Below the pieces are notes generated by a model. That model had not been told where the DNA came from. It ran no database searches and worked only from the letters and a program-made list of their open reading frames with translations. A DNA stretch of 64,000 bases from Quercus robur. Lineage: Eukaryota > Streptophyta > Magnoliopsida > Fagales > Fagaceae. Numbering within the stretch: position 1 is the stretch's first letter; each line of letters opens with the position of its first letter. Positions 3,966 through 64,000 of this stretch are shown here, piece after piece. Position numbers and translations under genes: made by a program. The DNA lies in NCBI RefSeq assembly GCF_932294415.1, contig NC_065535.1, positions 86,222,362 through 86,286,361 on the forward strand, read 5' to 3'.

Positions 3966-4469
3966 GGTTGTCAAAATCGGGATTCTACGCAGGATCGTGG
4001 GAGGTAGGTAGGATCGTGGATCGGATCGTGAATCGTAAGATCCTACATTATTTGAGAAAAAAACAAAAAATACACATTGGTATGTTAAATAATCACATAA
4101 ATTATACATTGATTGATATAATTACCATACATCACTACATTTATTTGTACACATTATTTAAAAATGTCAAAAACCTCAAAATGTGATACTCTATTAGAAT
4201 ATTTTTTATTTGAGTCTAACTGACACTCTCTCTACATTAGAGTGGAAAAACTTGGTCTATTGAGATTTTACTTTTAATTTGGGTCCAACTGAGCCTTTTG
4301 TTAAGTTAAAGAAAATTACAAGAAACCAATGTCGTTTGGGATTGTCAAAATCGTACGATCCTACCGATCTTGAACGATTGTAAAGATCCTTGAAAGATTT
4401 AGATTGTTTTGGGTAGGTGGGATCGTAAAATTGTAGGATCGTAGGATCCAGATCGAGATTTTGACAACC
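3966..4469. mobile_element. MITE with 13-bp TIRs (Mutator-like), unit A only
   Basis: The element begins GGTTGTCAAAATC and ends with the exact complement, GATTTTGACAACC. The flanks are ATTCCATT-type direct repeats of about 9-11 bp, and the homologous place in unit B (about 30160) has a single uninterrupted ATTCCATTAAAC. The inside is rich in GGATCGT/ACGATCC motifs and has no coding capacity. TIR length and duplication size fit a Mutator-type non-autonomous element; the family is inferred. It inserted after the DCL2 duplication or was lost cleanly from unit B. Confidence 0.82.
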
Positions 4470-6119
4470 ATGATTCCATTAAACTTAATACTCTGGCTTG
4501 GTTTGGTTCCAATTCTCATTTGAGGAAAAGTTTCCCTTTTCTTGACATTTTCTTAAAGGACACTAGTTTTTCCTATTAGATGTGTAGACCCTTTACCGTT
4601 TGGCCTCACAGGAATCAAGTTGTCTTATAATTTCAATGGTTAACAATAACCTTCATAAATTGTGTTTAAACAAAGCTTTAGTTTAATTTACTTTACAAGC
4701 ATGGTCAACCAGGAAGAGGGTCAATAGTTAAACCTTTAAAAATTTTGAGACTAAGGTTTTGTTGTTGGTTGTATTGTAAATGTTGTTGTAATTAGATTAG
4801 GAAAAAATAAAACTACTATAGTGGTTAACAAATAATAAAATTGAAGGGATATAATTTTCCTTGAATCTTTTTTTTTTTTTGAGAAGAAAAAAAAAATCTA
4901 TTTGTGTGATAATATTAAGTATCTACATCTACTTTTAATTGTGATGTAGATGACCTTTCTATTTAATACTGGTGAGATGTAAAAATCTATGTAAACCTCA
5001 TTAAAGGTTCATGGCCTTATTAAGAATAACTCTTTATTAAATGTGACCCTTCAATAAATTTGAATTATTAAGCGGAAGCTATAGATTAAAATTCTATAGT
5101 ATTTCCAAAAAAAAGTGACATCTATTGATACAAGAAAAACTACATTTGTCACATAAATGGATGAAATAACAATTTTGAAAATGAAATCAAATTTGATGGA
5201 TCACCAAAATAAAATTTTCAAAATTGATAGACCATAATGAAAATACCCCACTCTCTAATTGGTTTCATTTTCAAATTTATTTTTTCATGTCTTATATTTA
5301 CTGATGGGTCACATTAGTTACAGGCATGGACGAATCAAATGAAAAATTTCAGACTCAAAGAATAAAAATAAAAATAATCACAATCTATCAAAAAATAAAA
5401 AAATAAAAAAAGTACTCTTAAATCTTAATTAATAAAAATCTAATAAGAACAACCAATGACGTAGCCGTGTGGGCCTGTGGCTTTTGTAAAGAGCAATGAA
5501 CCTGGAAGATGCTTCACAAAAAGCACTATACATCAACTGCGAATCGAATAGTGGACCTTCGCAAGTAAAGTCGTTCATTACGAGGCCCCCACGCAACAAA
5601 CCAGTACGGAAACCTCTCTCTCTCTACTCACCAGACAAACAAACAAACAAATAATATGAAAAATGCTAGAAATAAAAACTTAAAAAATAAAAATTTACAA
5701 ATTGCTGGAAAGTGATTATTAATAAATAAAAATATAATGTTATTGATGGACTTAGATGAAAATTAGTAAGAAATTGTCCATTTGTAAAAATGTTATAAAA
5801 TAATTTGTGCCGGTAACATTACTCATAGAGGCTAACATATCTGAAATTTGTGCTACTACAATTCTCGAAAAAAAAAAAAAAATGTGCTACTACCAATTAG
5901 GTACTCAAGTTTAATGCATTTAAAATCTTACTAATTTGGTATTTAAATTCAACTTGGTTTCTAAGATATTTGAAAAAAAAAAAACACTTGTTTAAAAACT
6001 AAGTTGAAACTTACTAATTCGGTATTTAAATTTAACTTAGTTTCTAAGATAGTTGAAAAAAAAAGAGTGTTTAAAAACTAAGTTGGCTTTTAAGGACTAA
6101 ATTGGTCGATGGTACATGT

Positions 6120-6276
6120 ATCAGTGTATGAATTATATGCTCACGCAAAGACTTTTGTTGTTGGTCGGTCCATTGGTCTTCTCTCTCTCTCTCTCCCGCA
6201 CATACACTGATACATATACAAACTCGCGCTCTCTCTCTCTCTCACACATACACACACAAACAGAAATTACTGACAA
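6120..6276 (+). promoter_or_regulatory. Retained DCL2 promoter/leader sequence in front of DCL2-A
   Basis: This stretch is nearly identical to 31783-31963 in front of DCL2-B: a TATGAATTATATGCTCACGC segment, then CT and CA repeats, then ACTGACAAAAAG. In DCL2-B it lies just 5' of the coding start, so it should hold transcribed leader and proximal promoter. In unit A it is joined directly to an internal exon at about 6277-6281. I see no convincing TATA box; the assignment rests on conservation between the copies and on position. Confidence 0.55.
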
Positions 6277-8151
6277 AAAGTTGATTCATCTGGTGCTTCT
6301 ATCAGCACTGGATATAGCATCTCATTACTTCATGAATATTGTTCAAAACTTCCCTGTGATGAGTATGCCCTTTTACTAATTATGATCATCGTTTCACTTG
6401 AAAATTATGAGTTTAATCACTTAAAAACTTTGTGAACTTTTTATAACTGATCATATCTATATTTTGAGATGTATTGTATGGTTTCTTTTCTTGGCAGGTT
6501 TTTTGACCCCAACCCCAAGCCAGTATTCTTTTATTTTGATGACTTAGGAGGTACTGTCTACCACATAAATTTACCTCCCAGTGCTCCACTACGTCGAGTT
6601 ATTGGCACACCACAATCTTCACTTGAAGCAGCTAAAAAAGACGCCTGTCTGAAAGCAATTGAAATGTTACATAAAAAGGGTGCCTTGAATGACTGTCTCC
6701 TGGTTGGGCAAGATGATGTAGATGTAGACGGAATGGGGCTGGATTCTTCTGACTCAGATAGCTGTGAAGGTTGAAGCATTGAGCCAAAGCAATTTTGCTT
6801 ATTAATGTTTCTTCTCTTCTTTTTTGTCATTATGTCATATCAATTGTCTTTGATTTTGCATGTTGTCAGGTGAGGATCCACGAGGTGAACTGCATGAGAT
6901 GCAAGTTCCTGCTGTGCTAAAAGAACCGTGGACTAACTTGGAGAATCCTGTCCATTTTTACTCTTACTACATAGAATTTATTCCACATCCTGAGGATAGG
7001 GACTACAAAAAATTTGGTCTATTTGTCAAAGCAGCCCTGCCTGAAGAGGCCGAAAGAATGGAACTTGATCTTCATCTGGCTCGTGGTAGATCTGTGATGA
7101 CCAAGTTTGTGCCTTCGGGAGTTGCAGAATTTGATAAAGATGAGGTAGATGGTATTTGTTGGACAAAAAGTTTATGAGGGTAAACTAATTTTCTGACATT
7201 GTCCGATTGATATTTTCACAGATTGTGCTGGCACAGAATTTTCAAGAAATGTACCTCAAGGTCATCCTTGAACGATCAAAATTTGTTCCTGAATCCGTTT
7301 CCTTGGGAAAGAGCAATACTTGTGAATCAAGTTCATTGACATTCTACCTGTTGCTTCCAGTAATTTTGCATGATAGTGATAAAAAAATTACCGTAGATTG
7401 GAAGATTATTAGAAGATGTTTATCATCCCCTATTTTTAGGACCCCAGAAGATGCCGTGGAAAAGGAAAATTTCCCTTTGGGTGATAATTTGCTACTTGCC
7501 AATGGTTGCAGAAGCATAAGTGAGGTTAAGGATAGTTTAGTGTATGCCACTCCATACAAACAGGGTTTTTTCTTCATCACTGGCATAGTTGATGGAAAGA
7601 GCGGATACAGCCCTCATTCAGAAACTTCAAGGTATGCAGAGCACTCGTATGAGAAGTATGCAACTAGGCTTCTTGACACTTCGTAGACTATTTATACCAT
7701 TTTGGATTGCTTTTGAAACACATGTTATGCCTAATTTCTGCTTATTGAAAGGGAATTTGTTAATATATAATGAACTTAAAAGCATAATAATAAATATCCA
7801 AGTTTTATATATGTATACAAAATATACTGTAACTTCTGTTGCTTCTCTTTTATTAATTTATTAAATCATTTTTTCTTAAATGTTGGAAGTCAGGTTTCGC
7901 GTTCAACTCAAATACCCTGAACAACCTCTTTTACAAGCAAAACCGCTTTTTGGCTTGCGTAACTTGCTACATAACCGAAAGCCAGAAGATTCAGGTAATT
8001 ATTTTATTCGGTTTGTCATACTTTGTTGGGGTTAATTGCACTAAGTGATTCCTGCTTGTGTTGCAATTCTATTAATCTTGGAGTGTGTTGCATCTCAACC
8101 ATTTTTTTCTGTATGTTTTGTCGGGTTGCATCCTCTGTATACTGCCACCCA

Positions 8152-8172
8152 CCCCCCCCCCCCCCCCCCCCT
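8152..8172. repeat. Poly-C tract expanded in copy A
   Basis: About 20 consecutive C residues lie in the intron after exon 7894-7994. The matching place in DCL2-B (about 49758) has only a short run of five C. Homopolymers of this kind expand by slippage and are error-prone in sequencing, so the exact length is unsure. Confidence 0.8.
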
Positions 8173-8410
8173 CCCTCATTTGCGAGCGCACACACACATG
8201 TATTTAAAATTCAGTGTATAATTAAGCTTTTGCTGCAAAGATTTGGTGTTTGTTGAGCTGAATACTTTCGTAGTCCTAATGATATTTCCATTTGGTACTA
8301 AAAGCAATAAGAACTTCTATGCGACTAAAGCCTTTTTTTAACACTGGTAACTAAATGCGAACCTGGTGGGTCTTGAAACCCATGACCTCACCCTTCACCT
8401 GGTCTTACAG

Positions 8411-8559
8411 GGGAGGTGGTGCCAGATAGAGTTCATTGTTGGCTAACACAATTAAAAGAAACAATCCACTGTATTGAAGTTGCTGCATTGTTCGTAATCC
8501 ATGTTCAATTGGAGAACTATTTTGAGCTCAGTGGGGTTTATCTACTTGGTGGAAATTAA
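8411..8559 (+). other. Possible cryptic exon in the DCL2-A long intron
   Basis: An open stretch follows a good acceptor (TCTTACAG) and ends in TAA at 8557-8559. It is in phase with the upstream exon (7894-7994) and would add 49 residues containing GEVVPDRVHCWLTQL before the stop. DCL2-B has the same stretch at 50009-50157, open, with about three residue changes. The expected next exon (11600) is also in phase, so this is either an alternative terminal exon or a relic. I do not recognise the peptide. Confidence 0.3.
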
Positions 8560-8954
8560 ATGGCAGTGTTGACATAGATAACTTATATTTTTGGTATGGT
8601 ATTTTATCAGCGGGAGATTTTGTGGTTGAACCCCAAGACAAGCTCCCAGCTGGTTTGAAAAATTCTGTGTGTTAGGCTCATGCATGGGAGCTTATACATG
8701 AGGGATTCTTGAAGTAGATGAAATCCATGGTATGCTGATAGCTATAAGCTCTTGAGACAACTAGTAATTTATCAGGTAGGGTGTGACTTACTTTCATTGC
8801 TAGACAACAACTAGAATCTACAAAAGATAAAACTCTTAAGATTAGTGTTAGCTTTTGTAGTAGATGGTTTAGGGTTAGGGGATTTTAGAATAAAAAATCA
8901 GGAATAGTAATTGGAGTTTGAGAAAGACAGGATAATATGAAAGAAAGAATTGGA

Positions 8955-9514
8955 AATAGAAGATTCCTTCTCGTGTAACTTTCTTTGTTTGGACTGCTGC
9001 TTTAGAGAAATGTTTGATGATTGACAATTTATGAAAAAGAAAGGTTTGGATATTGGATTGGTGCTACATGTGCAAGTGTAATGGTGAATCGATTAACCAT
9101 CTCTTTCTTCATTGTCTGGTTGCTATGGATATGTAGTTTATGGTTTTGGGTTTATTTGGAGTAAGCTGGGTTATGCTGCAATCCGTTTTAGGGCTACTAG
9201 CTTGTTGGCAAGGCAAGTTTGGTTGTCATCGAAATGGTCATATATGGTTAATTGTTCCCCATTGCTTAATGTGGTGTCTTTGGAGGGAGAGAAATAGTAG
9301 GTATTTTGAAGATAATGAGAGATCCATACCAGACCTCAAGTTATTTTTCTTTAGAATTTTATTGGATTGGTGGTTGCTATGCGAAACCAATCATTCTCTT
9401 CTTTTCTTGATTTCCTTGATTCTTGTAATTTTTGTAGTTGATTGTTGACCCCTTGTACACTCCCTGTGTACTAGGGTGTTCCTTTTTATATATCAATAAA
9501 ACTTATTACTTATA

Positions 9515-9520
<6 letters not shown>
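8955..9520 (+). mobile_element. 5'-truncated LINE 3' end, unit A only
   Basis: The plus strand encodes the zinc-binding tail of a plant LINE (zf-RVT), with FFVWTAALEK, then [16 protein letters not shown], then LMWCLWRERN. It ends with AATAAAACTTATTACTTAT and an A/AT-rich tail (to about 9546). DCL2-B lacks it: there the flanks meet directly near 50548. Stops interrupt the frame. It is a dead insertion inside the long intron, made after the duplication. Confidence 0.8.
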
Positions 9521-9545
<25 letters not shown>

Positions 9546-10086
9546 TGTATAATATTGAATCCTAGATTTAGAATTAAAGCATAAATAATCTTCCATACCT
9601 CAAAGAAGGAAATCAGAACTATTTATATGCTAGAAATTCTAGCAAACATTGAATACTAGACGTAGAATAGGTCATATCACAAACGAGAACTTAAAATGGC
9701 AAAACCATAATTTGTTCACTGCTTTTGTGGTGTACAAGATACATGTGCTGCGGTAAGTTGAATTAAAGGTAAAAAGAACAAATAAGAGGGCCAGCAAATA
9801 TAAGTAATATCTTAATGGATGCTTAAATGAGCTCTTGTTGAGGTGGCACTTCCTCCATTTGTAAAAGAAGTTGGAGGGTGAGGACATGGGTTCAAGATCC
9901 ATTGGGCATCTGTAACTTATCAATTAAAAAAATAAGTTAACTCTTTAATCTAAAATAAAAGGTCTAGCTGATAAAAGTGATATCTTAACGGATGCTCCAA
10001 ATATGAGACTAAGGCTTGGTTGTTGTTTTTGATGGATCTTAATGGATGCTCCAAAGTTACTGGGGTACATTGTATCCTGATAGGCC

Positions 10087-11044
10087 ACTGAGCAGTTTTG
10101 GTTCTTGGAGTTTCAAATGAATGTTATTTGTCTCTCCGTCCACTTCCATTAGTTTCCTTACCTATGTGTCCAATAGAGCAATGACCCGACAACTTTTTTA
10201 AATTAAAAATTACAAACCAGCTTGGGTCTAATGGAGCAACCCGTTTCTATTTGGGTCTTTCCCTAATTCAATCCCAGTAACTATGTTGAAAAGAGAGAGA
10301 AATACGTTTGAGCCCACGCGATGCTGTCCTGCCCCCCATGTGATGGCATCGTCCTCCCTCCGGCACTCTTGTGGCTGTGCTTGCTCTTTGGTCCTTCGGG
10401 TCAGCTTCCATTTGCTTGCTGTGAAAACAATGGGAAAAAAAAAAAGAAAAAAGAACAAAATCGTGAATCTTATACCCAATTCAGCCTAATACGCGTCCTT
10501 GACTTAAGCAGAACTGCAGAAATGGTAAATACAGTACCCAAAATTTTTTTTTTTTTTCCCATTTTTTGGATTAACATAAACCAAAAAATGCATGACTAAA
10601 AAAAATTCTTCATGGGTTTATTTAATTTTCATTAGGTTTCTCAACAAACCTACACTTTGGTTAGAGAAATCATTAAAAGATTAAATATTTATAATAATTT
10701 GATAGTTACAACAGGGGAGAGGGGATTTGAATCTTGGATATCTTCATTGGAAATTCTAAGAGGTGTCAACCAGTTAAATCACAAGACAAAGATAAAATGT
10801 TTATTAAAAAAAAAGTGGATATTGGGTACTTAAAAAAAATTTGACCTTGGTGGCCTTCTTAGGGAGCAAGGTTCTGGCATTGGTCTAGGATGGAGGGATG
10901 ACTTTCTCAACTAAAATGTGATTCAGCAGTGGAAGTAAATGCTTTGCATCTAAGAAATTAACAAATATAGAGTAGCATAGAGAGGCCAAAGTTTTGATTA
11001 GTCTACGGAGGGGGGAGGACGGTGTCGTGTGGGGGTTAGAGCTC

Positions 11045-11081
<37 letters not shown>

Positions 11082-11318
11082 TCAATTAGATTACTGGGTT
11101 TGAATGGGGGAAAGAGAAAGAGACCCAAATAAAAACAGGTTGCTTTGTTAGACCCAAGCTTTTGTGTAATTTGTTAATAGTAAAAAAATTGTCACGTCAT
11201 TGTTCCATTAAACACATAAACAAGGAAACTAATGGAAGTTGACAGAGGGAATAGTGCTCATTTTTGAAACTTTTGGGACAGTGCTAATTTAAAATTTCAA
11301 GGACCAAAAGCGCTCAGC
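10087..11318. mobile_element. Element with long inverted repeats in the DCL2-A intron
   Basis: The left arm (about 10087-10200) and right arm (about 11185-11318) are inverted copies, roughly 80% alike by eye. They share CTTCCATTAGTTTCCTT and its complement and the CTGAGC...TTTTGG ends. The inside has a CT microsatellite (11050-11076) but no recognisable protein. The same structure sits at 51083-52332 in DCL2-B, so it was in this intron before the gene duplicated. Long inverted ends suggest a Mutator-like or fold-back DNA element; no target duplication was identified. Confidence 0.5.
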
Positions 11319-14300
11319 TATTAAACTTTAGGGACCAAAACTATATTTCGGCCCCCTCCCTCCCATATTGAAATGGTTAATGTGAAAGAGAGAAATTGAG
11401 TAACAAGTTATTTTATTAAAAAAAATTGAGAGTTTAGAAATGAACATGGCGTTGATATAAAATGAAATATGTGTGGGCATAGGTGCTTTTGTTGTACCTC
11501 AGTCTCCCTTGGAGCCATTACTGTTTTATCTTGTTTTTGTTTTCTTTAAATAAGAATAATCTTCTTTTTTGACTATGCTCATCTCAGTGTCAAAAACAGA
11601 ATCACGTAAACTGGAGGAGTACTTTACTGATTTGCCTCCCGAGCTTTGTCAGTTGAAGATAATAGGGTTTTCTAAAGATATTGGTAGTTCGATATCTTTA
11701 TTACCATCAATCATGCATCGTCTGGAAAACTTTCTTTTGGCCATTGAACTGAAGAAGACATTTTCTGCTGCATTCCCAGAAGGAGCTGAAATTACTTGTG
11801 ATAGAGTAAGGCTTTCTCATGTATAGTATTAACATAATTGGCTTTGAGGAGAAATGCTAACTTAACTTTATTGTTGCATGACTTTAATTGCACATGATCA
11901 ATATTTTTGTGGACCCCAATCGCTACTAAAGTTATGAATTTTTTATTAGGTCCTAGAAGCACTCACCACTGAGAAGTGCCAGGAGGGCTTTTCCCTTGAA
12001 AGGCTTGAAGTACTAGGTGATGCTTTTCTCAAGTTTGCAGTTGGACGGCGCCTATTTCTTTTGCATGATACCCTTGATGAAGGAGAACTTACAAGGAAAC
12101 GTTCTAATGTTGTAAACAACTCCAATTTGTACAAACTAGCAACTAGGAGCAAGTTACAGGTAAATGAATTTTAGAATATGATTCTCATCTACTTATTATA
12201 AAAAAAAAAAAAAAAAGGATATGCTTTTTACTTCCCAAATATGAACTTATCTGTCATTCTATCTTGATTTTTCTTTTCATTTGCTTTTGAATTAGTTAAC
12301 CGAGAAAATTCAACCAATCATCCTAGTGATGAAGTGCAAAATATAAGTGTTCCTTTCCAACATGGTTTGAAGGTGATAAACATGGCACCTTCAAAAACTG
12401 AAAAACTAATGTGATTGTTGATGGTCAAATGAAAGTAACAATTTGATATGGCATGTAACGACCTGAGGAAAACGATAGCCACATTTGTGCTTATACCCTT
12501 AAAGGACCAGTCAAGCTATAATTGGGGCTCTTTGGAATCATTTATAAACCCAAGATCCACCTAGTAAACACTCGATATGGGACTCAACACACACCTAAAC
12601 AATCCAATCCTATCATATCCACACAATTTGGGGTATCACATGGCACTTCTTTTCTTTCTGTAAATGTAGTGCTCTCTCTCTCTCTCTGTGGCCTGGAAAA
12701 CACTCAACTTGTCTGATATTTGAGAAAGTTTTTTGGCTTATATTATTCCCACTACCCAATGCTTCCTGTCAGGTACTGCTGAACGGATAAATTTCAGTTA
12801 GGAAAATTAGTACCTTCTACGTTACTGATATTTTCTTTTAATTGGTTTTAATATCTAAGTGTATAGTATTTGCTCTCTTATTTCAGGTATACATACGTGA
12901 TCAGTCATTTGATCCCTTGAAATTCTATGCTTTCGGTCGCCCTTGCCCAATAATTTGTAACAAGCAAAATGAAGGTTCTACTCATTCCCGGTCAAGTAAT
13001 CTTGCGGATCGTGCAAGTTTTAATGAAGTCAGGTGCAGTAAAGGTCACCACTGGTTAGATAAGAAAACAATTGCTGATGTGGTTGAAGCTCTTGTTGGAG
13101 CATTCATAGTTGACAGTGGCTTCAAAGCCGCAACTAGCTTTCTTCGATGGATTGGCATACAAGTGGACTTTGAAGCCTCACAAGTTTCAAATGTCTGCAT
13201 TGCAAGCACTAGATACATGCCACTTAGAGCTCGTATGGACATTGGTGCCCTTGAAAATTTGTTAGGGCATCAGTTTCTCCATAGAGGTCTGCTTCTACAG
13301 GCATTTGTACATCCTTCTTACAACCAGCATGGAGGAGGCTGCTATCAGGTATGCACTGCTTCTTTTCTACTTCTGGTGTTAAGCAACAGGCATTCCTCTT
13401 TGCTTAATGATTTGATGGTTTTGACCAGAGATTGGAGTTTCTTGGAGATGCTGTGTTGGATTACTTAATCACATCATATCTGTATTCAGTTTATCCAAAG
13501 TTGAAGCCTGGTCAATTGACAGATTTGAGATCGGTATTTGTGAACAACAAGGCCTTTGCAAATGTTGCAGTAGATAGATCCTTCCACCAATTTCTCATCT
13601 GTGATTCCAGTGGCCTTACTGAGGCCATCAAAATTTATGTGGACTCTGTTAAAAATCCTGCACCAGAAGGAAGTCCTCATGAGGGGCCAAAATATCCCAA
13701 GGTAAACGTTGAAACTCTTGTTTTTATTTTATTTTTGGGGTGGAGGTGTCCCTAATGGGTTTTACATGGTAATATCTTGAAAAGTATTTCTAGTTCCTAG
13801 TATATCAATGTTGCTACAATTATCAAATTAAAAAGAAATGAAATATTTTTTTTGATAAGTAAGAAAAAATTAAAAAGAAATGAAACATTGTAAACATTAT
13901 ATGTAAATCAATGTTCTGTCTAATTTCTAATGATTGAAAAGAAAAGTAAGAATATAAATTGATGCGGGATGATAAACTCTAGGAGGGGGATTTCTTTTGG
14001 GAAACAAAAGAACAAAACAGAGGAATAGGACCTAGAAATTAGCACTTAGGATTTGCTTGAAGCCAGCATCAAACAAATAAAACAGAAAAATAGATGGAAC
14101 CTTGGTATCAGCTCCTAGAGCTGTTTGGAGTCAACAACATGCAAGATATGAACCTAAGAATCAGCACCAAACACTGGAATAAAACTCCCAACACAAATGT
14201 TATAAATCCATAATCAACTGCTTACAATATTTGCATTTGGGGCCCCTTAAATAGGACTCCCAAATTACATCATAAAAGGAAAGGAAATAAATTTTAACCT

Positions 14301-15063
14301 AACAGGTGTTAGGAAAGGAAATAACTTCTAATCTATTATATTAAATGGGAAAATAAAAGAGAAATAAATCTTTAAAACTCTCAGCATCAATCATGATCAA
14401 TTAGGTCCTACAAAATCAGTGATCATTAATAGAGCAGTTTTGGTGTCTATACCGTGAACATTACATGTGAAGTTTCTAACGATTCACTTATTGCCTCAGG
14501 CTTTGGGTGACTTGGTAGAGTCTTGTGTGGGTGCCATTCTTCTTGATACAGGGTTTAACTTGAACCTTGTGTGGAAGATAATGCTTTCCTTTTTGGATCC
14601 AATAATGAGGTTCTCCAGTTTTCAGCTTAGTCCTATTAGAGAACTGACAGAACTTTGCCAATCTCATAATTGGGTCCTACGAACTTCAGCATCAAAGAAG
14701 GATAGAATATTTTCAGTTGAAGTACAGGTGAACGGAGAAGATGTTTGTGTAACTGATTCTGCAACCAACCTGAACAAGAAAGAAGCTATTAGAATTGCTT
14801 CACAAAGAATATTTGCAAAGTTGAAGGTAAATCCTTTATGCTTACTTTATGCCTTTTCTCTCCTGTTGTCTCAAGTTTATTACATTATCTTTTTTCCATT
14901 TTTTACTTGACTTCAACTCTGTAAGAACTGAATATCAGTTGTTATCTAAGTAGGGACTACAGCTCTACCTCAGGTAAACTAAATATCATTATTTGGCTTA
15001 TGTGCTCTCTCTCATCAAGAATTGCCAATGTGCTACAGCAGAATGAGAGAGAGCAGATGATTT

Positions 15064-15172
15064 TAAAGAAGACAATTTCCACACAGAAGTAGAGAGAGCA
15101 GATAATTTTTTACTTGTCAAAAAATTATCTGCTCTCTCTCTTTCTGTTTGTGGAGATTGTCTTCTCTAAAAG
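15064..15172. repeat. Intronic hairpin (arms about 50 bp) in DCL2-A
   Basis: The left arm, containing AAGAAGACAATTTCCACAC and GAGAGAGCAGATAATTTTTT, is followed by a 7-nt loop (ACTTGTC). The right arm is its near-complement (AAAAAATTATCTGCTCTCTC, then GTGGAGATTGTCTTCTCT). A few mismatches and a short indel lie mid-arm. It is in the last intron (14827-15863). It is a small fold-back or MITE that would form a dsRNA stem in the pre-mRNA. The corresponding part of DCL2-B is beyond the window. Confidence 0.75.
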
Positions 15173-16230
15173 TTAATATATCAGGTGAATGCTGACCCGT
15201 TTTCTTGCCATTATGTTTTTTCATGCATTAAAGCTGGAACTTTTCGGGCCTTTTAACCATATAATTGTTATATAGATTCATGTAGCCCACTTGGCCTTGG
15301 TAGTGTCATCATTTGGATGCTGAACTAGCTTAGTTTATTAATCAATTAATTTGTTTCTGGGGTATGAAGAGGTAGTAAGGAGCTTATTGTTGTTTAAAAA
15401 TCTCTTTCTCAATTAATTCTTTCTCTAATAATGGGATTATTAAAAGCAAGATCGGGATCTTGCCTTTTTCTCATTTAGCACAAATAGCCCTTGATGTTCT
15501 AGAATGACTTCTTTTTCATTTCATTTTTTTTTCTTTTCAATTTGTGTCCCCTTTGTCTTTTCAGATTGTCTTGTTTTGTTTATACTTTTGAATTGATAAA
15601 GTGGCAGTATAAAGTATCAATTTTTTTTATTTGTCCAGGAACTCCATATATATATTGCTCATGAAACAGGCACGCATTGTTTATTGTTGCGTATTTATCA
15701 TTTACTTGCTTTGCTAGGCATATTCTAACCAACTCAAGAAGAGTTTTAATACTTAAATTCCCTGTCCCCCAAAAGAAACCCTCCTCCCCCTTCTAACCCA
15801 TCACTCTTTCTTTTATGATACTTCATTTTCTGGAGCTCTTTAACTGTGGATGTGGATTTGCAGGCTCAAGGCTACAAGCTCAAGTCATCTTTGGAGGAAG
15901 TTTTGAAGTCAAGCTGCAAGATGGAAGCCAAACTAATTGGATATGATGAAACACCTATAGATGTAACTACTCCTGATGCCAAATTACCAAACTGGAAATG
16001 AAATACTGTTGCCACAAAAATCAAGTTTTTAGTATAAAAAAAATGTATACAAAGCAAAACCAAGCATTTGTTTAATATTATGAAAGTAAGATTTTATTAA
16101 GAGACAACTTTTTTTTTGCTTGAAAGTAGGAGACTTTTTTTTTTTTTTTTGGAGAAGAAAGTAGGAGACTATTTAAATGTTAAGATATTCGGTTAAATTA
16201 ATAACTTATTAAGATTGATTATAGTATAAA

Positions 16231-18563: not shown

Positions 18564-18782
18564 ATCCGGAACAGGTTTATATATATATATATATATAATT
18601 GAGGGAATATATATTCTATATGGAATAATAGTCTTTTGAAGCTAATACATGAAAGAAACTTAAATGTCCATTACACAAGGTCCTAGATGCTTTTTTAATT
18701 ATATATAACTAGCCTTCTAATAATCTTCTATTTTTTATGTAAAGGTTAATAATTTAAATCCATTATAATTTAGGATTACTAC

Positions 18783-19303
18783 TGATGAACACAAGGAAAT
18801 CAATAAGCTGAATGTCTCGGGCGTTGATGATCTCAATGTTACTTAGAATGTCCTAAAAAGATAAACACAAAATCAAAGGAGACCGGGGAGGACCAGTCAA
18901 GAATCCTCCGATGGTAAAGTCAGTATTTTTGAAATTCCAATTTGTGTGGAAGTGTCTCAATTCCTTACCTTCCTGTAGAAGAGCCCTTATATAGTGCTTG
19001 TCTGAGACAGTTACTTCTCCTACCGTTGTGGAGTTCGGAGGATTCAAAGGTAACTTCCATAACCACCATGAAAGTTACATTATTTGGGGTCTGTTTTCCA
19101 TAACCGTTTATTAGGGGAACGGGTTGTAGCCTGACAAGAAAACAGAAGTAGCTTCAACATGTTCAGGACACAAGGCGCTCGTCCAACTGACTTTGCGAAC
19201 GGACGGGCTTACCTTAGACGAATATGCTGTATGCCATCCAACATTTCCTTAGGACAGGCCATATGGACAAGTTTAAGAGTTGGTATATTTTATAACACCA
19301 TCA
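18783..19303 (-). repeat. 3' LTR of the Gypsy element
   Basis: 521 bp, TGATGAACACAAGG at one end and TATAACACCATCA at the other. It pairs with 27876-28383. A 13-bp stretch near 19262-19275 is missing from the other LTR. Confidence 0.93.
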
Positions 19304-19507
19304 GTTGCCCCCTCGTCCATATGGATCGTCTAAAGGAATGTGTAGTTTGGCATCATTTCCTTGGACGTGTGTATTTAATGTCTACAGTTAGATGTGCCAC
19401 GTGTCATAATTTTATCGATGATCAGTCTCGTCGTTTATTTTTTGAGGGGTAAGCCACATGTCATATCCTAGTTGGTTGTGTCGTTTCGAATACCCAAGTC
19501 AGTTGTC

Positions 19508-19515
19508 TATAAATA
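19508..19515 (+). promoter_or_regulatory. TATA box of the antisense gene
   Basis: TATAAATA lies about 135 bp before the ATG at 19650 on the plus strand, outside the LTR and followed by a pyrimidine-rich leader. Its position and consensus fit a core promoter driving transcription opposite to gag-pol. The start site is not determined. Confidence 0.6.
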
Positions 19516-19649
19516 GTGGAATTCCTCCTCTACCCTTTACATTTCTGAAATTTTCCTTCGTCTAGAAGTCTCTTCGCGTCCATAGTCCTCTTTCGTCTAG
19601 AGCTAGGTATTCTCTTCCTTCTCGTCCTTAGGTTTTTGGTTTCCAAAAA

Positions 19650-21827
19650 ATGTCTGAAACTGTTATTTCTTCGTCTAGCAATAGTACAGAGAAAGCTATA
19701 GACGAGTATTATGATACAATCAGTGAAAGTGGTTCTAGTAATAGTAGCCATAGTAGTGAGGAGAGTTCTACGAACGAGGGATATACTTCTGGTGTCCCTA
19801 GGCTTCCTTTAGAAGTAATCCAAGAACAACTTAGGAAAGCCTCTGGTTCCCAAGTTGGTACCCCGTCCAGTGTCCCTCCGTCTAGTCCTTTGGATGAAGA
19901 GGAGACCGTCTATAGTTGTGTAGTAGGTATTCATTCCAAAACGAATGAGCAAAGGCTTAACAATTTTAGGACATGGTACCAAATTCCGGATGAGCTTAAC
20001 CCTAAGTTGCCCGTCCGTGGAGAATGGTGCTGTAATCCTCGTTTTGGAGTAGGCGTCTATGAGGCTTATTTCTTGGGGGGTTTTAGGTTGCCTTTGAATG
20101 CATTTGCTAGAGAGTTATTGGTTAGGTTAGGTTTAGGTATATGTTAATTCAACCCTAACGCGTGGAGATTAGTTATCTCTATGCAAATTTTGTGGAGGGA
20201 AGTCTTTGGAAGGGACCATCCTCTTACTGTGGACGAGTTCCTCTTTTGTTACAAACCTTCAGAGATAAATCAATCTCTAGGCTTTTACCAATTCATAGCT
20301 AGGGGTAAAGATTGTAGATTAATCAAGTCCCTAGCCTCGTTTGACAGGAATTGGAAGACAGAGTTTATCTTTGTCTCCGGTTTTTGGGCAGGGAACCCTG
20401 TGGACGTTGGCAAGGACCCTTTTGCCCCTTATTCTGGGGACTTAGGGAACTTTCATCCTGAAGGTACGTCCCTCCCCTTTTTCGCATTTTTCTTTCTTTT
20501 ATCTTTTTTTTTTTATTATTTGCTTCTAACCTTTGTTTATTATTTGTTTTACAGGTGTTAAACGACCTTCCTTGAGTAAATTTCACCATGACCGCGTCCA
20601 CAGGGCTCGTCTTTACGTCAATAGGGATTTTCATTCTTTGGTTACCTTACGACGTCTTGCCAAGTGGGGACTTGCTCACAAGGTTATAGTGCGAAGAAGT
20701 AAGTTTCCATCTAATGGTCGTTTGAACATCCTGTCATATTTCCTGATATATTTATAATTTGTCACTTATTGTTATTGCTTTTTGCTTTAAAAATGTCAAC
20801 AATGAAAGAAAATAAAGAAAAAGAAGTTATAGGTGAGGGGAGTCGTCCTGAGGCTCAATCTCAAGCTCGTCCGTTGGCTAGGGACAAAAAGAGGTCTTTA
20901 TCTAAAAACCTTGATTTGGGAAATCTCCCCAACCGACGAGACAAAAAGGCTAAGCACGGGTCGTCCCAAACAGTCAAGTCCAACCTTCCTATGTCTCAAC
21001 CACCCGTCAAAATATATGATGTGGACTCGTCCACTCCAATTGAGACCACTCCGTCTAAGACTCCTCCGCCCAAGACGACTGTGCCATCCACATCCCAGCT
21101 TTCACAACGGCTCCCTTCAAACATTATTGAAAATGAAGACCTGGCTTGGGAACGTTTTCAGAAAGCTGTTTCAGATAAGGACATAAACACTTGCTATGAC
21201 ATGTCTCTAAAGGATTTTGAACATTCTGGTATTCATGATCTTTTTAAGGTATGTAATCGTTTCTTCCTTTTTTCTTTTTTTGAAAAATATATATTTATAT
21301 ATATTTTTTCATTTAACTTTCATTTTTATCATTTTTTTTTTTAGGCTATGTCAAAATTTATTGCAGCGTCCAGGCAAGCCACAGGATTAGACAAGATGAG
21401 GGTCTTGTTAGAGACAAGGATTCAGGAGGTGAAAGAAGAATCTAAGAAGTGGGCTGACGTAGCTGCCAAGGTTAAGGAAAAGGCAACTGAGCTACAAAAC
21501 TTGATTGAGGAGCTGAAAACTGATGTGGTGGAAAAAGATACTAGTTTTGATCATCTACAGAAGAAGAACAATGAGCTGAGTACTCTTCTTTCCAAGGCAA
21601 AGGAAGATACAGTGACTGAATTCAAGGCGTCCAAACAATACACTGATCTTCTAGACGCCAATTATGCAGCAGACTTTGAGGATTTTAGAATGGATACTAT
21701 GGAGAATTTCCCTGAAGTGGACTTTAGCTCCATTAAGCTTAACCTGGCTGCTGCTACCAACTCTCTTCTTCAAACTAGCTCCGAGGATGTCAATGTGGAA
21801 GACGATGCTACCACTCAGCCACCTTAA
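19650..21827 (+). pseudogene. Antisense ORF of the Tat-type Gypsy element (gypsy-type 'transposase' family), one stop
   Basis: Predicted exons are 19650-20463, 20555-20698, 20809-21248 and 21345-21827, with GT-AG introns of 91, 110 and 96 bp; the second acceptor is the least certain. Joined, they give 626 codons. The acidic, Ser-rich N-terminus is followed by a domain with NPNAWRLVISMQILW and an FWAGNPVDVG-like segment, then a proline-rich linker, then a coiled-coil-like C-terminus (about 21350-21640). This resembles the plant protein family known as putative gypsy-type transposon / Transposase_28, whose function is unknown. One in-frame TAA at 20145-20147 interrupts it just before the NPNAWR motif. 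It has its own TATA box. It is far better preserved than the gag-pol genes on the other strand. Confidence 0.75.
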
Positions 21828-23015
21828 GATAACCCCAATGCTAATGCCCCTTCTTCTTAAAGACGAGACCTTTACATTTAGGTTATCCTTAGTATTTCTT
21901 TTTCTTTTTTTGGTTTGATCCATTGTTTTGGATCTTTTTATTGTAACCCAAGTACATTTTATCTCGTCCATGGTTTTAGGACGGGCTTCTAAATAATTGC
22001 CTTTTGGGCTTTTTATTTTAACAAGGGTTTTTTGGACTTTATAAAGTTTGTTTCCTTTCTATCATTGTGTGGACGAATTTTTTTTTTTTTTTTTTTTAAC
22101 AATTGGTTTCACTCTTGACTCGTCCATGATAGAAGTATTCATTCATCCTTTTGAATTTTGCAAGTTATTTTTAAGTATAGCTCGTCTTTGGGGATGACAA
22201 CACTTTTTTCCTCAACTTTATTCGTCCTTAGACTTGGTAGCTGGTTTTACATTCTATCCATAAGCCTAACTTTTCCTCGTCCAAATAATTGGATTGTTAT
22301 AGTTGGCGTCCTGCTTGACATGAAATATTCATGTATGCATTTCCTCGTCCATGGGTAGGACTAATGTATTAAGGGCTTTACTTTGTCCATTATCTGGACA
22401 AATATGCCTTGTTTTTCCTTGCATCTCCGTGTCCAGAGATTTTACTCGTCTTGGGCTTTTAGCCTTCTTGTTGATTATTTTGAATAAAAACAATATAAAT
22501 ACTAAAAATTCACACAACATTATGTATATAGCATAAACATTGTTCATAGGTGAGGCATGTGCTTAGAAGCTAATGCCATTAAGGAATTTAATAAATACAA
22601 ACTCCATAATCTCGTCTATAGCTCACAACACACAACTTTAAAGACTAAATATAGTTTTAAGAAATTAACACATGCACAAAGCTTATATTTAAACGGACTT
22701 CGAAACAAACTTTTAGCTGCTTGTCCTAGGTAATGCTCGTCCAGGCTGGGACTTTACTGGTAATACCTTCTCAAGTGTTCAACATGCCAAGGGTGCTCCA
22801 ACTTCCTCCCGTCCAAAGTTTCCAAGTAGTAGGATCCTTATCTTTTGCAATTGATAACTTTGTAGGGTTCCTCCCAATTAGGTCCCAGTTTCCCATGAGC
22901 TGGGTTCTTAGTTGCCAAAGAAACTTTTTTCAGGACGAGATCTTTTATGTTGAACCGCCTTGGCTTCACCATTGCATCATACTACCTAACCATGAGGTTT
23001 TTGTATCTCGCTGTC
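21828..23015. other. Non-coding tail between the antisense gene and integrase
   Basis: About 1.2 kb inside the Gypsy element with repeated CTCGTC/TCGTCC words and poly-T tracts, and no supported gene. It separates the 3' ends of two convergent units: the antisense gene (ends 21827) and gag-pol (ends about 23016). Confidence 0.6.
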
Positions 23016-23990
23016 CTATGTTCTACGTTCGTCCTTACCTCGTATTAGATTGAGGTTTAAATGGAGTTGCTCCTCGTTGTCCTTATCCTGATACATCGTC
23101 ACCTTGTGGTTGACCATGTGCACTTTTGCAGGTATGACTGCTTCGCTTCCATAGGCTAGCTTGAAAGGAGTTTCTCCTGTAGGGGTTCTCACCGTCGTCC
23201 TGTACGCCCATAAAACATCTAGTAGCTCATCTGGCCATACTCCCTTTACCCCCTCAAGCCGAGTCTTGATGATACTTAACAAGGATCAGTTTGCAACTTC
23301 GGCCTGACCATTTGCTTAGGGGTGGGCGGGCGAGGAATAATGATTTTGAATTCCGAAGTGTTCACAGAAGTCTCTGAAAAATGCATTGTCAAATTGTCGT
23401 CCGTTGTCAGACACTAATTCTCTGGGCACCACAAACCTGCACACAATGTTCTTCCAGACGAAATTCTTGACATTTTGTTATGTGATACTCGCTAAGGGTT
23501 CTGCTTCTACTCACTTTGTGAAATGATCAATACCCACCACCAGAAACTTCATCTATCTCATCTCAAGTGGAAAGGGTCCTAAAATGTCTAGCCCCCATTG
23601 TGCAAAAGGCCTTGGGGCCATCATCGGGGTGAGATATTCTGATAGTTATCTGGGGACGTTACTAAACCGTTGGCATTGATTGCAGACCTTGACATATGCC
23701 TTGACATCAACTTGCATATTTGGCCAGTAGTAGCCTGCACGGACGACTTTGTGGACAAGTGATCTGGCTCCTGAATGGTTGCCACATGCTCCATTATGAA
23801 TCTCCCTCAATACATAATTGGCCTCGTCCGGAGCTAAACACCTCAGATAAGGTTGCGAAAAACCCCTTTTGTATAGTACCTCATCCATGAGGACGTATTT
23901 GGCTGATCTGACTCTAAGCTTCCTGGCTTCGTCTTTTCTTTCTGGAAGCTTTCCGTCCTTCAAGTATGATAATATTGGAGTCATCCAATT
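23016..23990 (-). pseudogene. Gypsy integrase, broken
   Basis: The minus strand shows the HHCC zinc-binding start (HNGACGNHSG...CNQCQRF, 23646-23830). A DDE core follows in pieces (LDILGPFP-type and VSDNGRQFDNAFF segments, 23380-23620). The end of the core holds WAYRTTVRTPTGETPFKLAYG (23100-23240). Stops lie at 23646, near 23556 and 23512, and twice near 23280-23320. Its job would be inserting the element's DNA copy; it cannot be made in this copy. Confidence 0.85.
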
Positions 23991-25988
23991 TTCTTCACCT
24001 TTTATCTGTTGTACTTCTAGAAAGTCTATGCTGGGCAGGTATTGAATTTCATCTAACTCGTCCATTACTTCACTCGCTGAGGCTGCCTTTGCTAAAGTAT
24101 TTGCTTCCATGTTTTCTTCTCTTGAGATCTGAACGAAATCAGCTTCCTTAAACTTCTTTACAAGGCATACCACCTTATTAAGGTACTTCTTCATTCGTTC
24201 TTCTTTGGCTTCACATGTCCCATTTACTTGGCCTATGACTAGTTGAGAGTCTCCCAGTATGAGTATCGATTTTGCTTCCACAGATTTAGCCAACTCCAAC
24301 CCTTTAAGAAGGGCTTCATACTCAACTTCATTGTTGGTTGTTTGATACTGCAGACAAACCTTATGCTTCAATTTATCTCCCTCCGGGGATAGTAAAACAA
24401 CTCCTATTCCTCCTGCATGCTGTGTAGATGATCCATCCACACAGACGATCCACTTCTTACTATTCTCCACCTCGCTTAAGTCATCATAACTCGGAATGAA
24501 CTCTGCAATGAAGTCTGTCAGGGCTTGAGCTTTTATTGCATTTCTGGGTTGGTACCTAATGTCAAATTCGCTAAGCTCGACAGCCCATTGGATTAGTTGT
24601 CCTGCGGCTTCCAACTTGTTCATTGCCTTCTTGAGTGGATGAGCCGTCATGACATTGATAACATGAGCTTGGAAGTAATGTCTCAACTTCCTAGAAGCTG
24701 TTATTAGTGTAAAGGCCAATTTCTCTATCAATGGATAATGTCCTTTCACTCCTCTGAGCACTCTGCTTATGTAGTAGACTGGCTTCTGCACCCTTCCTTT
24801 TTTTCTGATTAACGCTGAACTTATAGCATGTGGAGTCACTGCTAAGTACAAGTACAATTCCTCTCCCAACATAGACGGACTCAGCAAGAGGGCCGTGGTA
24901 AGATATATCTTCAGGTCTTGAAAAGCTTTCTGACACTCGTCCGTCCATTCAAATGCCTTTTTAAAAACTTTAAAAAACGACAAAAATTTATCAGTAACTT
25001 TAGAGACAAACCTGTTGAGGGCAACAACTCGTCCGGTAAGAGACTGGACTTCTTTGATATTTCGTGGAGGCTCCATGTTCAGTATCGCCTGGATCTTGTC
25101 TGGATTTGCTTCAATCCCCCTATGTGAAACCATAAACCTTAGGAATTTCCCTGATGACACTCCGAAAGCACACTTACTAGGGTTCAACCTCATGTTGTAC
25201 TACCTAAGTGTGTCAAATGTTTCCTGCAGGTTGTCTAGATGCTTTCCCTCGTCCTGACTTTTCACCAGCATGTCATCTACTTAGACTTCTACATTCTGCC
25301 CAATCTGTGGACGAAACATGTGGTTAACCAACCTCTGATATGTTGCCCCAGTGTTCTTCAAACCGAAGGGTATCACCTTATAACAGAATAAGCCTTGACT
25401 TGTGACGAAGGATGTCTTCTCTTGGTCTACCTCGTCCATCCTTATCTGATTGTATCTAAAGAAAGCATCCATAAAACTAAGTAGCTTGTGACCTGCTATG
25501 GAATCTACCAATTGGTCAATGCGTGGCAACGGGTAGTTGTCCTTGGGACAAGCCCTATTTAGATCGGTGAAATCTACACACATTCTCCACTTTCCGTTTG
25601 CCTTCTTGACCATTACTACATTGGCCAACCAGTTTGGATAATAAACTTCTCAAATGAACTTCGCTACGGTCAACTTCTGCAATTCTTCTTTAATAGCATT
25701 GTCTCTCTCAGGAGTAAACACCCTTTTCTTCTGTCGTACAAGCTTAGAGGAAGGATACACATTTAGACGGTGGGTAATGACACTAGGGTCTATACCCGAC
25801 ATATCCTCATAACTCCAAGCAAACACATCAATACTCTTCCTGAAGAAACGGACAAGGTCCTTCTTAATCTTCTCTTCTAAATTTGCTCCAACCCTGGTAC
25901 ACCTCTTGGGGTTATTCTCATCCAAGAAAATATTTTCTAATGCTTCGGTAGGCTCTACCACAACTCTCCTTTCCTCAATATTCATCAT
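23991..25988 (-). pseudogene. Gypsy reverse transcriptase and dual RNase H, broken
   Basis: On the minus strand, 25281-25988 holds the RT start, including KANGKWRMCVDFTDLNRACP and the DNYPLPRIDQLVD and VIPFGLKNTGATYQ motifs. The catalytic YVDD at about 25270-25281 reads stop-VDD. RT continues from 25193. The Gypsy RNase H (TPHAISSALIR, then HYPLIEKLAFTL) is followed by a second, archaeal-like RNase H with VCVDGSS, TNNEVEYEAL and ILGDSQLV; its last acidic position appears as Asn in EANTLAK. A stop at about 25650 separates the first RT segment. The double RNase H supports assignment to the Tat lineage. Confidence 0.88.
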
Positions 25989-25994
25989 CTGAAC

Positions 25995-26692
25995 TTATTC
26001 GTCCATGGCCAACATGGCCAGGTAGCATTCTCTTGCTGCCAGTTGATCTCCCTGCACTTGTCCTATCCCATGCTCCGTTGGAAATTTGACTGACAGGTGG
26101 TAAGTAGACGTAACTGCTTTCCAACTATTTAAAGTTGGTCTTCTAATTATGGCATTGTAGGAGGATGAACAATCTACCACCAAGAAATTCACGTCCCTGG
26201 CTACCTGTTGTGGGTATGCCCCCATCACGACAAGTAATGTGACAGTGCCTATAGGCTGCACCTTCATTCTACCAAATCCTACCAAGGGTGAGTTTACTAG
26301 ACGAAGTTGGTCTCGTCCGAGCCTCATTTGCTGAAAAACAAGGTAATAAATATATCTGCTGAACTTCCATTGTCCACCAATACCCTTGTAGTTGTATAAT
26401 CGACAATAAGCAAAGTAATAATGATGGCATCGTCATGGGGGTGGTGAACTCTTTCAGCATCCGCGTCCGTGAATGTGATTGCTTGCTCGTCCGTGGTCCT
26501 CGTCCTTGGAGATCGTCCAGAGAGTTGAACATTCTGCACTACCTTCAAATACGTCTTCCTGGACTTGGACAATTGGCCTGCTGAGCTTCCTCCTATAATA
26601 ACTCTTATCTCTCCAAGCGGGGGTTGCAATGACTCTTCTACCTTCCCTTTCAACTTCTCATCCTTATGTTCTCGTCTAAAGAAATTTCTCAA
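25995..26692 (-). pseudogene. Gypsy protease region, frameshifted
   Basis: The minus-strand segment contains LVDNGSSADI, the aspartic protease active-site loop (26360-26390). A frameshift near 26330 moves the downstream part (GRDQLRLVNSPLVGFG onward) into another frame, and a stop at 25992-25994 separates it from RT. Retroelement proteases cut the polyprotein; this copy cannot. Confidence 0.75.
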
Positions 26693-26722
26693 CTTTCCTT
26701 GTCTTATAAGATTTTCAATCTG

Positions 26723-27796: not shown

Positions 27797-27859
27797 TGCA
27801 GCCTTTTTGTCAGAGAAAGGAATTGTAGAACTCATATAAAATCTAACAAAACTTTTTCC

Positions 27860-27875
27860 CACAGACGGCGCCAAC
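27860..27875 (-). promoter_or_regulatory. Primer-binding site of the Gypsy element
   Basis: Directly inside the 5' LTR, the minus strand reads GTTGGCGCCGTCTGT, of the TGGCGCCGT type used by many plant Gypsy elements. The exact tRNA was not assigned. Confidence 0.7.
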
Positions 27876-29398: not shown

Positions 29399-31963
29399 AA
29401 AAAGGGAAAAGCAACCAGTAAGCCATCTAACAAAGTTTCTTGGTCCTATATAAAAAAAATTAGTACATGCACTTAAAAATTGAAAACATGTGTGGAAATA
29501 TGTGTGGGTGAAAATACATATAATATTGTTTAAAAACTGAAAACATGTATTTGAGTGGGTATACCAAACGGAAAGCTTCTTGGAGAGGCATTGTACAAAT
29601 CTTCTTCAAGAAAATTTCAAAGTTGCTAAAAGCTTCTAGAAAAAAAAAAGTTTTTTTTTTTTGAAAAAATAAAAAATTTGTACACATTCTTTGTGAGTGC
29701 CCTTTTGGGCTTTTTAATTTTTTTTTTAATTTTTAATTTTTTATATTGGTGGAATAAGCATGGAATTTTGGGAATAGCTTATCTAGTTTTTTGCTAAAAT
29801 TTGTTTGCTAAAAATGTGCTAGAGTATACTCGTATTTTGAAAATAAAAAAAAAAAATGAGAAAAGGCGGGAAAAAGTGAGGTTTTAAAAAGCTATACATG
29901 AAAACCAAAGAAAGTTAAAAACTAAAAGCTGATGCCAAACGTACTCCTAGTGTCTATTTGGGAATAGTTTATTTAACTTTTTGTTGAATTTTTTTTTTTT
30001 TTTTTGGCTGAAAGCTTGTTACAGTATTCTTGTACCTTGAAAAATTTTGAAAAAAAAGAAGGGAAAAAGTGGGGAAAAATTGAAGGTTTAAAATATTGTA
30101 TATAAAAGCTGTACATAAAAGTTAAAAGCTAAAGTTGATGTCAAACAAACTCTAGCATCATTCCATTAAACTTAATACTCTGGCTTGGTTTGGTTCCAAT
30201 TCTCATTTGAGGAAAAGTTTCACTTTTCTTGACATTTTCTTAAAGGAAACTAGTTTTTCCTATTAGATGTGTAGACCCTTTGCCCTTTGGCCTCACAGGA
30301 ATCAAGTTGTCTTATAATTTCAATGGTTAACAATAACCTTCATAAATTGTGTTTAAACAAAGCTTTAGTTTAATTTACCATGCAAGCAAGGTCAACCAGG
30401 AAGAGGATCAATACCTTTAAAGATTATGAAACTGAGGTTTTGTTGTTCTTCGTTGTATTGTAAATGTTGTTGTAATTAGATTAGGAAAAAATAAAACTAC
30501 TATAATGGTTAACAAATAATAAAAATGAAGGGATATAATTTTCCTCAAATCTTTCTTTTTTTTTTTTTTTTGAGAGGAAAAAAAATCTACTTATGTGATA
30601 ATATTAAGTATCTACATGTACTTTTAATTGTGATGTAGATGACCTTCCTACTTAATACTGGTGAGATGTAAAAATCTATGTAAACCTTATAAAAGGTTCA
30701 TGGCCTTATCAAGAATAACTATTTATTAAATGTGACCCTCCAATAAATTTGAATTATTGAGCGAAAGCTATAGATTAAAATTTTATAGTATTTTTTTTAA
30801 AAAAAGTCACGTCTATTGATCCAAGAAAAACTACATTTGTCACATAAATGGATGAAATAACAATTTTGAAAATGAAACCAAATTTGATGGATCACCAAAA
30901 TAAAATTTTCAAAATTGATTGACCATAATGAAAATACCCCACTCTCTAATTGGTTTCTTTTTCAAAATTATTTTTCCATGTCTTATATTTACTGAAGGGT
31001 CACATTAGTTACAGGCAGGAACGAATCAAAATGAAGATTTTCAGACTCAAAGAATAAAAATAAAAATAATCACAATCTATCAAAAAAAAAAAAGTTACTC
31101 TTAAATCTTAATTAACAAAAATCTAATATGAACAAACAATGAGGTAGCTGTGTGGGCCTGTGACTTTTGGAAAGAGCAAGGCACCTGGAAGACGCTTCAC
31201 AAAAAGCACTAGATTAAACTGGGAATCGAATCACAGACCTTAGATCGCAAGTAAAGTCGTTCATTTCGAGGCCCCACACAACCAACCAGTACGGAAACCT
31301 CTCTCTTTGCTCACAAAACAAACCAACAAACCAGCAAACAAAATGTATGAAAAATGCTAGAAATAAAGACTTTTTATCCAAAAAAAAAAATTGTTAATGT
31401 AATGCGTGATTATTGGTAAATAAAAATATGATATTATTGATAGATTCAAATAAGAACTAGTAAGAAGTTGACCACAATATCCATTTGTAAAAATTGTAAA
31501 ATAATTTATGTTGGTAGCATTATTCAAACATAATTGGCTAATACATCCGAAATTTGTGCTACTACAATTCTAAAAAAAAAAAAAAAAGATTGTGCCACTA
31601 CCAATTAAGTTTAACACATTTTAAAACTTACTAATTTGGTATTTAAATTTAACTTGGTTTTTAAGATAGTTGAAAAAAAAACCGTATTTAGAAACTAAGT
31701 TGGTTTTAAGAACCAAATTGGTCCATTTTAAATTTTAAATTCTCTTGGTTCCAAAACATCAAGAAAATTTTTTTTTTGAGAGTATGAATTATATGCTCAC
31801 GCAAAGACTTTTGTTGTTGGTCGGTCCATTGGTCTTCTCTCTCTCTCTCTCTCTCTCTTTCTCTGTTACTCAAATACACTGATACATATACAAACTCGCG
31901 CTCTCTCTCTTTCTCTCACACACACACAAACACAAACATAAAACAGAGATTACTGACAAAAAG
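29399..31963 (+). repeat. Upstream block of duplicated unit B (main part)
   Basis: Non-coding block homologous to 3215-6276, without the MITE. It contains the same AT-rich stretches, the CTCACGCAAAG leader segment and the CT repeats before the gene. No cellular gene was found here. Confidence 0.85.
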
Positions 31964-32113
31964 CCTGAGTGAAAGAAAGAACGATGATGGCAAGTGCTAC
32001 CTAGACTTGTTGATTCTATATAACTCTAGTTTATGGTCATTCTTATTATCTTGTTTTGTCTTATTTCTCTTCTCTTCTACTTCACAACTTCGAGTCCACA
32101 GCAGCAGCACACA
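31783..32113 (+). promoter_or_regulatory. DCL2-B promoter-proximal region and 5' leader
   Basis: CT-rich leader shared with unit A up to 31963, then unique sequence. Two features could affect translation. ATGATGGCAAGTGCTACCTAG (31983-32003) is a six-codon upstream ORF. An ATG at 32033 is in frame with DCL2 and would add 27 residues with a hydrophobic run (MVILIILFCLISLLF). I prefer the ATG at 32114, which has A at -3, because Dicer-like proteins are not expected to carry a membrane anchor. A spliced 5'-UTR intron that removes 32033 is possible. Confidence 0.5.

Positions 32114-64000
<31,887 letters not shown>

Follow-up and report, generated by a model that had tools for sequence, protein, structure and literature searches.

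The 64,000-nucleotide window analysed here, from Quercus robur, holds two DICER-LIKE 4 (DCL4) units: a full-length gene, unit B, whose last exons lie past the window end, and alongside it unit A, a tandem duplicate that is broken at both ends, retains an open reading frame and has lost its AUG. On balance, unit A is most likely a disabled relic, and it probably makes no working Dicer. This reading rests on the joint at its 5' side, the lost exons, the missing start, the 3' break, the lack of a Dicer_dimer match in the product of its first in-frame ATG, and the Ka/Ks of 0.59 between the two units.

The sequence-only reading had named both units DCL2, and that name has to be abandoned. The 887-residue spliced frame of unit A scores 1084.9 bits against the solved plant DCL4 (9kby/9kbz), its residues 2-887 corresponding to DCL4 635-1519, compared with 376.8 bits for DCL3 and 372.3 bits for DCL1 (solved chains; a DCL2 chain was absent from the listing and was not scored directly). 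For unit B, the C-terminal part (856 residues) and the helicase half reach 1078.5 and 962.5 bits against the same DCL4 chain, and identity to DCL4 is 489/851 in A and 495/851 in B. In Pfam terms, unit B carries DEAD (72.5 bits), Helicase_C (71.2 bits) and a second dsRBD (DND1_DSRM 65.6 bits, dsrm 36.6 bits) encoded by exons 24-25, which begin at 65541 and 67112 in window coordinates, beyond the window end. Unit A lacks DEAD and Helicase_C (Pfam and peptide search) as well as the second dsRBD, and keeps Ribonuclease_3 in two stretches (152.5 bits), in which ERLEVLGD and RLEFLGD, motifs that we take to have a catalytic role in RNase III domains, are visible by eye. Across the genome, eight of 35 RNase III matches lie at 82-99% identity, all in A or B, and the other 27 at 58% or less; A and B are the sole two DCL4-type RNase III loci in this genome. 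Brachypodium DCL2 is reported to have one dsRBD (PMC6822278). The two dsRBDs of unit B, together with the far better scores against solved DCL4 than against DCL3 or DCL1, lead us to reject a DCL2 identity for both units.

In unit B, the only full-length DCL4 found, exon 18 opens with a 59-base CT-rich insertion (52599-52657) that has TGTC on both sides. Four AG acceptors lie between 52585 and 52680. With three of them, among which is the original one, translation runs out of frame to a premature stop; the remaining one, which starts the exon at 52666, 12 bases inside the former exon, preserves an open frame at the cost of four residues, and the solved DCL4 likewise lacks four residues close to this site. 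Intron 21 of B contains an element (54876-62568) that reads as copia-like from its ORFs, with a nested LINE 94.5% identical to the LINE at 42708-44810 in intron 10.

Alignment of the two units confirms to the base the proposed fusion of the unit A leader to exon 13: A 6123-6280 aligns to the B leader at 31779-31963, and A 6277-6420 to exon 13 and intron 13 of B at 47881-48024, with AAAG shared at A 6277-6280, in the B leader at 31960-31963 and in the B exon at 47881-47884 (Table 1). The stretch of B without counterpart in A, 31964-47884, amounts to 15,921 bp as measured on B; it includes a LINE perhaps absent from the ancestor of A, so this figure does not give the size lost from A itself. The 16-mer across the joint has a single occurrence in the 785,749,727-base genome, and a control pattern, the same string read backwards, does not occur. 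An assembly artefact at 6277 is highly improbable, given a window with zero N within a 98-Mb contig. Furthermore, A and B diverge on either side of the joint, with 132 mismatches in 1,710 aligned bases upstream and six differences in the 86 bases of the exon 13 piece, which makes a simple misjoin unlikely and argues that A is not a mis-joined copy of B sequence.

Table 1. Positions of the features of units A and B, in window coordinates.
Feature	Position	Strand	Basis or remark
Unit A, upstream region and 5' leader	4469..6276	+	homologous to B 30156-31959, blastn
Unit A, in-frame TGA directly before the open frame	6271..6273	+	sequence
Unit A, AAAG overlap at the fusion joint	6277..6280	+	A-B alignment
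Unit A, rest of exon 13 (3' part), start of DUF283	6277..6362	+	6/86 differ from B; GT donor
Unit A, exon 14, most of DUF283, first in-frame ATG 6664-6666	6498..6769	+	Pfam Dicer_dimer
Unit A, exons 15-17, platform/PAZ region	6870-7144, 7222-7655, 7894-7994	+	Pfam PAZ sub-threshold
Unit A, exons 18-19, connector and RNase IIIa	11588-11805, 11950-12159	+	Pfam, DCL4 alignment
Unit A, exons 20-21, RNase IIIa/IIIb	12887-13348, 13429-13701	+	Pfam, DCL4 alignment
Unit A, exon 22, end of RNase IIIb and first dsRBD	14500..14826	+	Pfam
Unit A, broken exon 23	15864..15981	+	homologous to B 65125-65242; unrelated sequence after; stop TGA 15999-16001
Unit B, leader side of the joint	31955..31963	+	alignment
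Unit B, GTTGATTC in the leader, alternative deletion site	32009..32016	+	identical to exon 13 47884-47891
Unit B, start codon 32114, exons 1-13 including DEAD/Helicase_C	32114..47966	+	Pfam, DCL4 alignment
Unit B, exon 13 side of the joint	47881..47891	+	alignment
Unit B, exons 14-22	48102..64000	+	exon 22 ends at 64083, past the window; exons 23-25 follow

The loss of exons 1-12, most of exon 13 and the whole helicase from unit A is likewise borne out by the alignment and by peptide searches. Searched against the window extended by 30 kb on either flank, peptides of B exons 1-12 match nothing outside B at an E-value of 0.01 or lower, and they find no helicase exons in the 36 kb upstream of A. 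When the B helicase was searched against the genome, with 73 of the 112 first-look candidates scored, 13 of the 70 matches listed fell in B and one in A, namely the exon-13 stub; the best match by identity outside the window was an 83% exon-2 fragment. Relocation of the helicase exons of A was considered and rejected, no second set being found in that extended window or among the scored candidates (73 of 112) of the genome search.

Among the 70 matches listed for the helicase query, 37 are dispersed fragments of DCL4 exons 1-2. Each of the 12 examined matches part of B 32112-33259, half of them (6/12) begin no more than two bases from the start codon of DCL4, and exon 2 contains a frameshift or stop in eight of the 11 copies placed. 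In the one fragment tested, the DCL4 piece follows an ORF with a C-JID domain, a domain known from TIR-NLR genes; a decayed piece of DCL4 may have been amplified together with an NLR family.

How the deletion arose is a separate matter from its product. The claim of a one-step, microhomology-mediated event is compatible with the joint and is the more economical, and it is unproven, as an 8-bp repeat permits a two-step route. Overlaps of at least 4 bases occur at 2.3% of all leader/exon-13 breakpoint pairs scanned and at 3.3% in a local scan, so that the AAAG microhomology is suggestive only. Alternatively, a deletion between the two 8-bp GTTGATTC repeats may have come first, with roughly 45 bp of leader (31964-32008) lost afterwards, an origin that we regard as possible but doubtful: one copy of the repeat sits exactly at the exon side of the joint (47884-47891), and exon 8-mers are rare in the leader of B (9/3,812 8-mers, or 0.24%, of 20 B exon intervals found in its 159 bases), but the route calls for another small deletion whose end coincides exactly with the repeat. 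Both routes yield the same end product and the two-step origin is compatible with A being either a relic or a source of protein; the one-step deletion is the simpler, and neither is proven.

At the 5' end, the view that unit A is a domain-clean truncation, intact from DUF283 onward, is overstated: its coding exons are open, but the start codon is lost, as is the 3' end inside exon 23. The start codon of B (32114) lies downstream of the breakpoint, and the leader retained in A is thus untranslated. No in-frame ATG precedes 6664, which is residue 86 of the 887-residue frame and lies near the end of DUF283; since the Pfam Dicer_dimer match spans residues 15-98 (72.8 bits), most of DUF283 precedes this ATG, which is upstream of the PAZ region and the RNase III domains and not of DUF283. 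Three out-of-frame ATGs (6332, 6359 and 6539) come before it in spliced exons 13-14, and two further ATGs, at 6128 and 6137, are relevant if that part is transcribed. The product from ATG 6664 has 847 residues with two Pfam RNase III stretches and no Pfam Dicer_dimer match; its dsrm score of 21.2 bits falls below the cut-off of 23 and PAZ is also below its cut-off. Over the 887-residue frame dsrm passes (29.4 bits), with PAZ at 20.7 against a cut-off of 28.8. DUF283 of DCL4 is reported to bind DRB4 (PMC7827160). Ka/Ks of the segment before ATG 6664 is 0.45, with a range (0.17-1.36) too wide to give power for distinguishing coding from non-coding sequence.

At the 3' end, homology between the units stops at A 15981/B 65242, inside exon 23, where the exon of B continues; unit A runs on for six more codons (KLPNWK) to its stop. 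This break leaves A without the second dsRBD and the native 3' end. A tandem duplication with its right edge in exon 23 would explain it. A retroelement and other DNA now occupy the 13.6 kb between the break and the left homology edge of B (29572), which makes a later deletion possible as well. Direct repeats at 18781-19303 and 27874-28383 (89.7% identical) flank gypsy-like ORFs in this interval, and 18781-28383 is an LTR retrotransposon, gypsy-like by reading of its ORFs. Two pieces of a DCL4 tail peptide, used to seek the last exons of A past the retroelement, match nothing significantly in the window, with best E-values of 0.41 and 0.075, although one piece detects exons 24-25 of B beyond it. 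A Pfam search for a dsRBD in ten ORFs at 15.8-18.1 and 28.9-29.4 kb, one of them the exon 23 frame, found none: eight match no Pfam family and two give weak, unrelated matches. A retrocopy origin of unit A is excluded, because A retains introns homologous to those of B.

The remaining frame of unit A is well preserved. Its 11 coding pieces, with edges set by hand from the A-B comparison, comprise 925 codons with no stop or frameshift; all 10 introns have GT-AG borders, and a single in-frame stretch of 6 bases sets A apart from B. As regards pseudogene lesions, the evidence is divided: the start codon and both ends are lost, and the frame between them is intact. Over 923 codons, A and B differ by Ka 0.045 and Ks 0.077, giving a Ka/Ks of 0.59 (0.42-0.87; bootstrap P for a ratio of 1 or more, 0.004), a value that points to weak constraint and would be near the expectation for one neutral and one constrained lineage. 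Simulations (1,500 runs of 856 codons) took substitutions from the divergence of 0.0646 seen in introns and set indels at one quarter of the intron rate, for which 4,410 aligned bases gave 47 gap events, 32 falling in the one long intron 17. Here a copy neutral since the duplication kept a frame with neither stop nor frameshift in 0.6% of runs (0.006), a copy neutral for half the time in 8.9% and one neutral for a quarter of the time in 27.5%. On this evidence A did not decay freely after the duplication and was under constraint for much of its existence; a late, perhaps recent, deletion with drift thereafter fits equally well.

Polarisation of amino-acid changes on DCL4 assigns 25 to A and 20 to B, with 38 unassigned to either; an earlier count of 25:19 is incompatible with a 5:1 excess in A (P 3e-5) and compatible with a 2:1 excess (P 0.11). 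At the 83 differing sites, BLOSUM sums against the solved DCL4 are 76 for A and 116 for B, and stronger decay of A than of B is unsupported (sign-flip P 0.21). Divergence along the aligned units (6277-15981 versus 47881-65242) is uneven, at 5-9% in exons 13-16 and 1-3% in exons 19-21, with 0/80 differences in intron 20; gene conversion in the RNase III half is possible.

Taken as a sequence of events, a deletion, or two successive ones, would have joined the untranslated leader to an internal point of exon 13, so that the start codon and the entire helicase were lost, and a second break inside exon 23 would have taken the linker and the second dsRBD. What is left is an open, splice-competent core of DUF283, PAZ region, RNase IIIa, RNase IIIb and first dsRBD with no natural start. 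On a transcript driven by the inherited promoter, three out-of-frame AUGs in the spliced exons would precede ATG 6664, from which at most the 847-residue protein could be made. The two breaks, the open frame, the lack of an AUG and the full-length neighbour B are observations; we infer that the promoter of A works, that the deletion came late and that no effective protein is made. The frame free of stops and frameshifts, the Ka/Ks below 1 and the balance of polarised changes all weigh against a relic.

The same observations bear on the alternative that unit A is translated from ATG 6664 into an 847-residue mini-DCL4 lacking helicase and DUF283, which would serve as a minimal dicing core or compete with full-length DCL4. 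The open frame, the 10 GT-AG introns that separate the 11 coding pieces, the retention of both RNase III domains in the 847-residue frame, the Ka/Ks below 1 and the upstream region kept in A speak for such a protein; set against them are the three out-of-frame AUGs before 6664 (and the two more upstream, if transcribed), the loss of the native 3' end and a Ka/Ks that indicates weak constraint, and we consider its production unlikely. That such a protein, with PAZ region, two RNase III domains and one dsRBD translated from the internal ATG, has been kept by selection beside full-length DCL4 appears slightly less likely still; it would be the plant equivalent of the helicase-less Dicers of animals and protists. 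A non-coding role, in which the RNA of A would for instance give rise to small RNAs that match the 3' half of DCL4, is in keeping with blocks of its transcribed region that are 87-94% identical to B and with the leader retained in the tandem copy; however, A and B share one orientation and so form no hairpin, and the intact frame would be left unaccounted for, which makes this role improbable.

The relic reading and its alternatives differ in what the locus may teach. If A is translated, it offers a natural test of plant DCL4 function without the helicase; as a relic, it illustrates the order of decay in a tandemly duplicated Dicer, in which the ends go first and the catalytic core last. With either fate, annotation could list such a locus as an additional short DCL gene and so overstate the number of DCL genes. 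The literature search met no account of the unit A locus, and absence from print is not claimed.

Several known systems resemble unit A in part. The solved plant DICER-LIKE 4 is like A over the shared residues given above, from which A departs in having no helicase, start codon or second dsRBD. Among plant paralogues, BdDCL3b of Brachypodium lacks DEXDc and HELICc (PMC6822278); both it and A are helicase-less plant DCL paralogues, but BdDCL3b belongs to the DCL3 clade and has an extra N-terminal dsRBD, whereas A is a DCL4 fragment without its own start. MtDCL2c of Medicago, described as truncated C-terminally by a stop, with RNase IIIb and the dsRBD affected, and as transcribed (PMC4833791), is like A a truncated, duplicated DCL paralogue with intact kin in the same genome. 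In mouse oocytes, Dicer-O/delta-HEL1 arises from an alternative promoter in one gene, loses only HEL1 and supports RNAi (PMC11239679); it naturally lacks the N-terminal helicase subdomain, in contrast to A, which lacks a start upstream of the retained core. The minimal Dicer of Giardia, a working enzyme with PAZ and two RNase III domains and without helicase, DUF283 or dsRBD (PMC7827160), shares the helicase- and DUF283-less layout of the ATG-started product of A, but it is not a fragment of a duplicated gene and has no dsRBD. Helicase-less or truncated plant DCL paralogues are already in print, and unit A differs from them in being a DCL4 copy that is cut at both ends and has no start.
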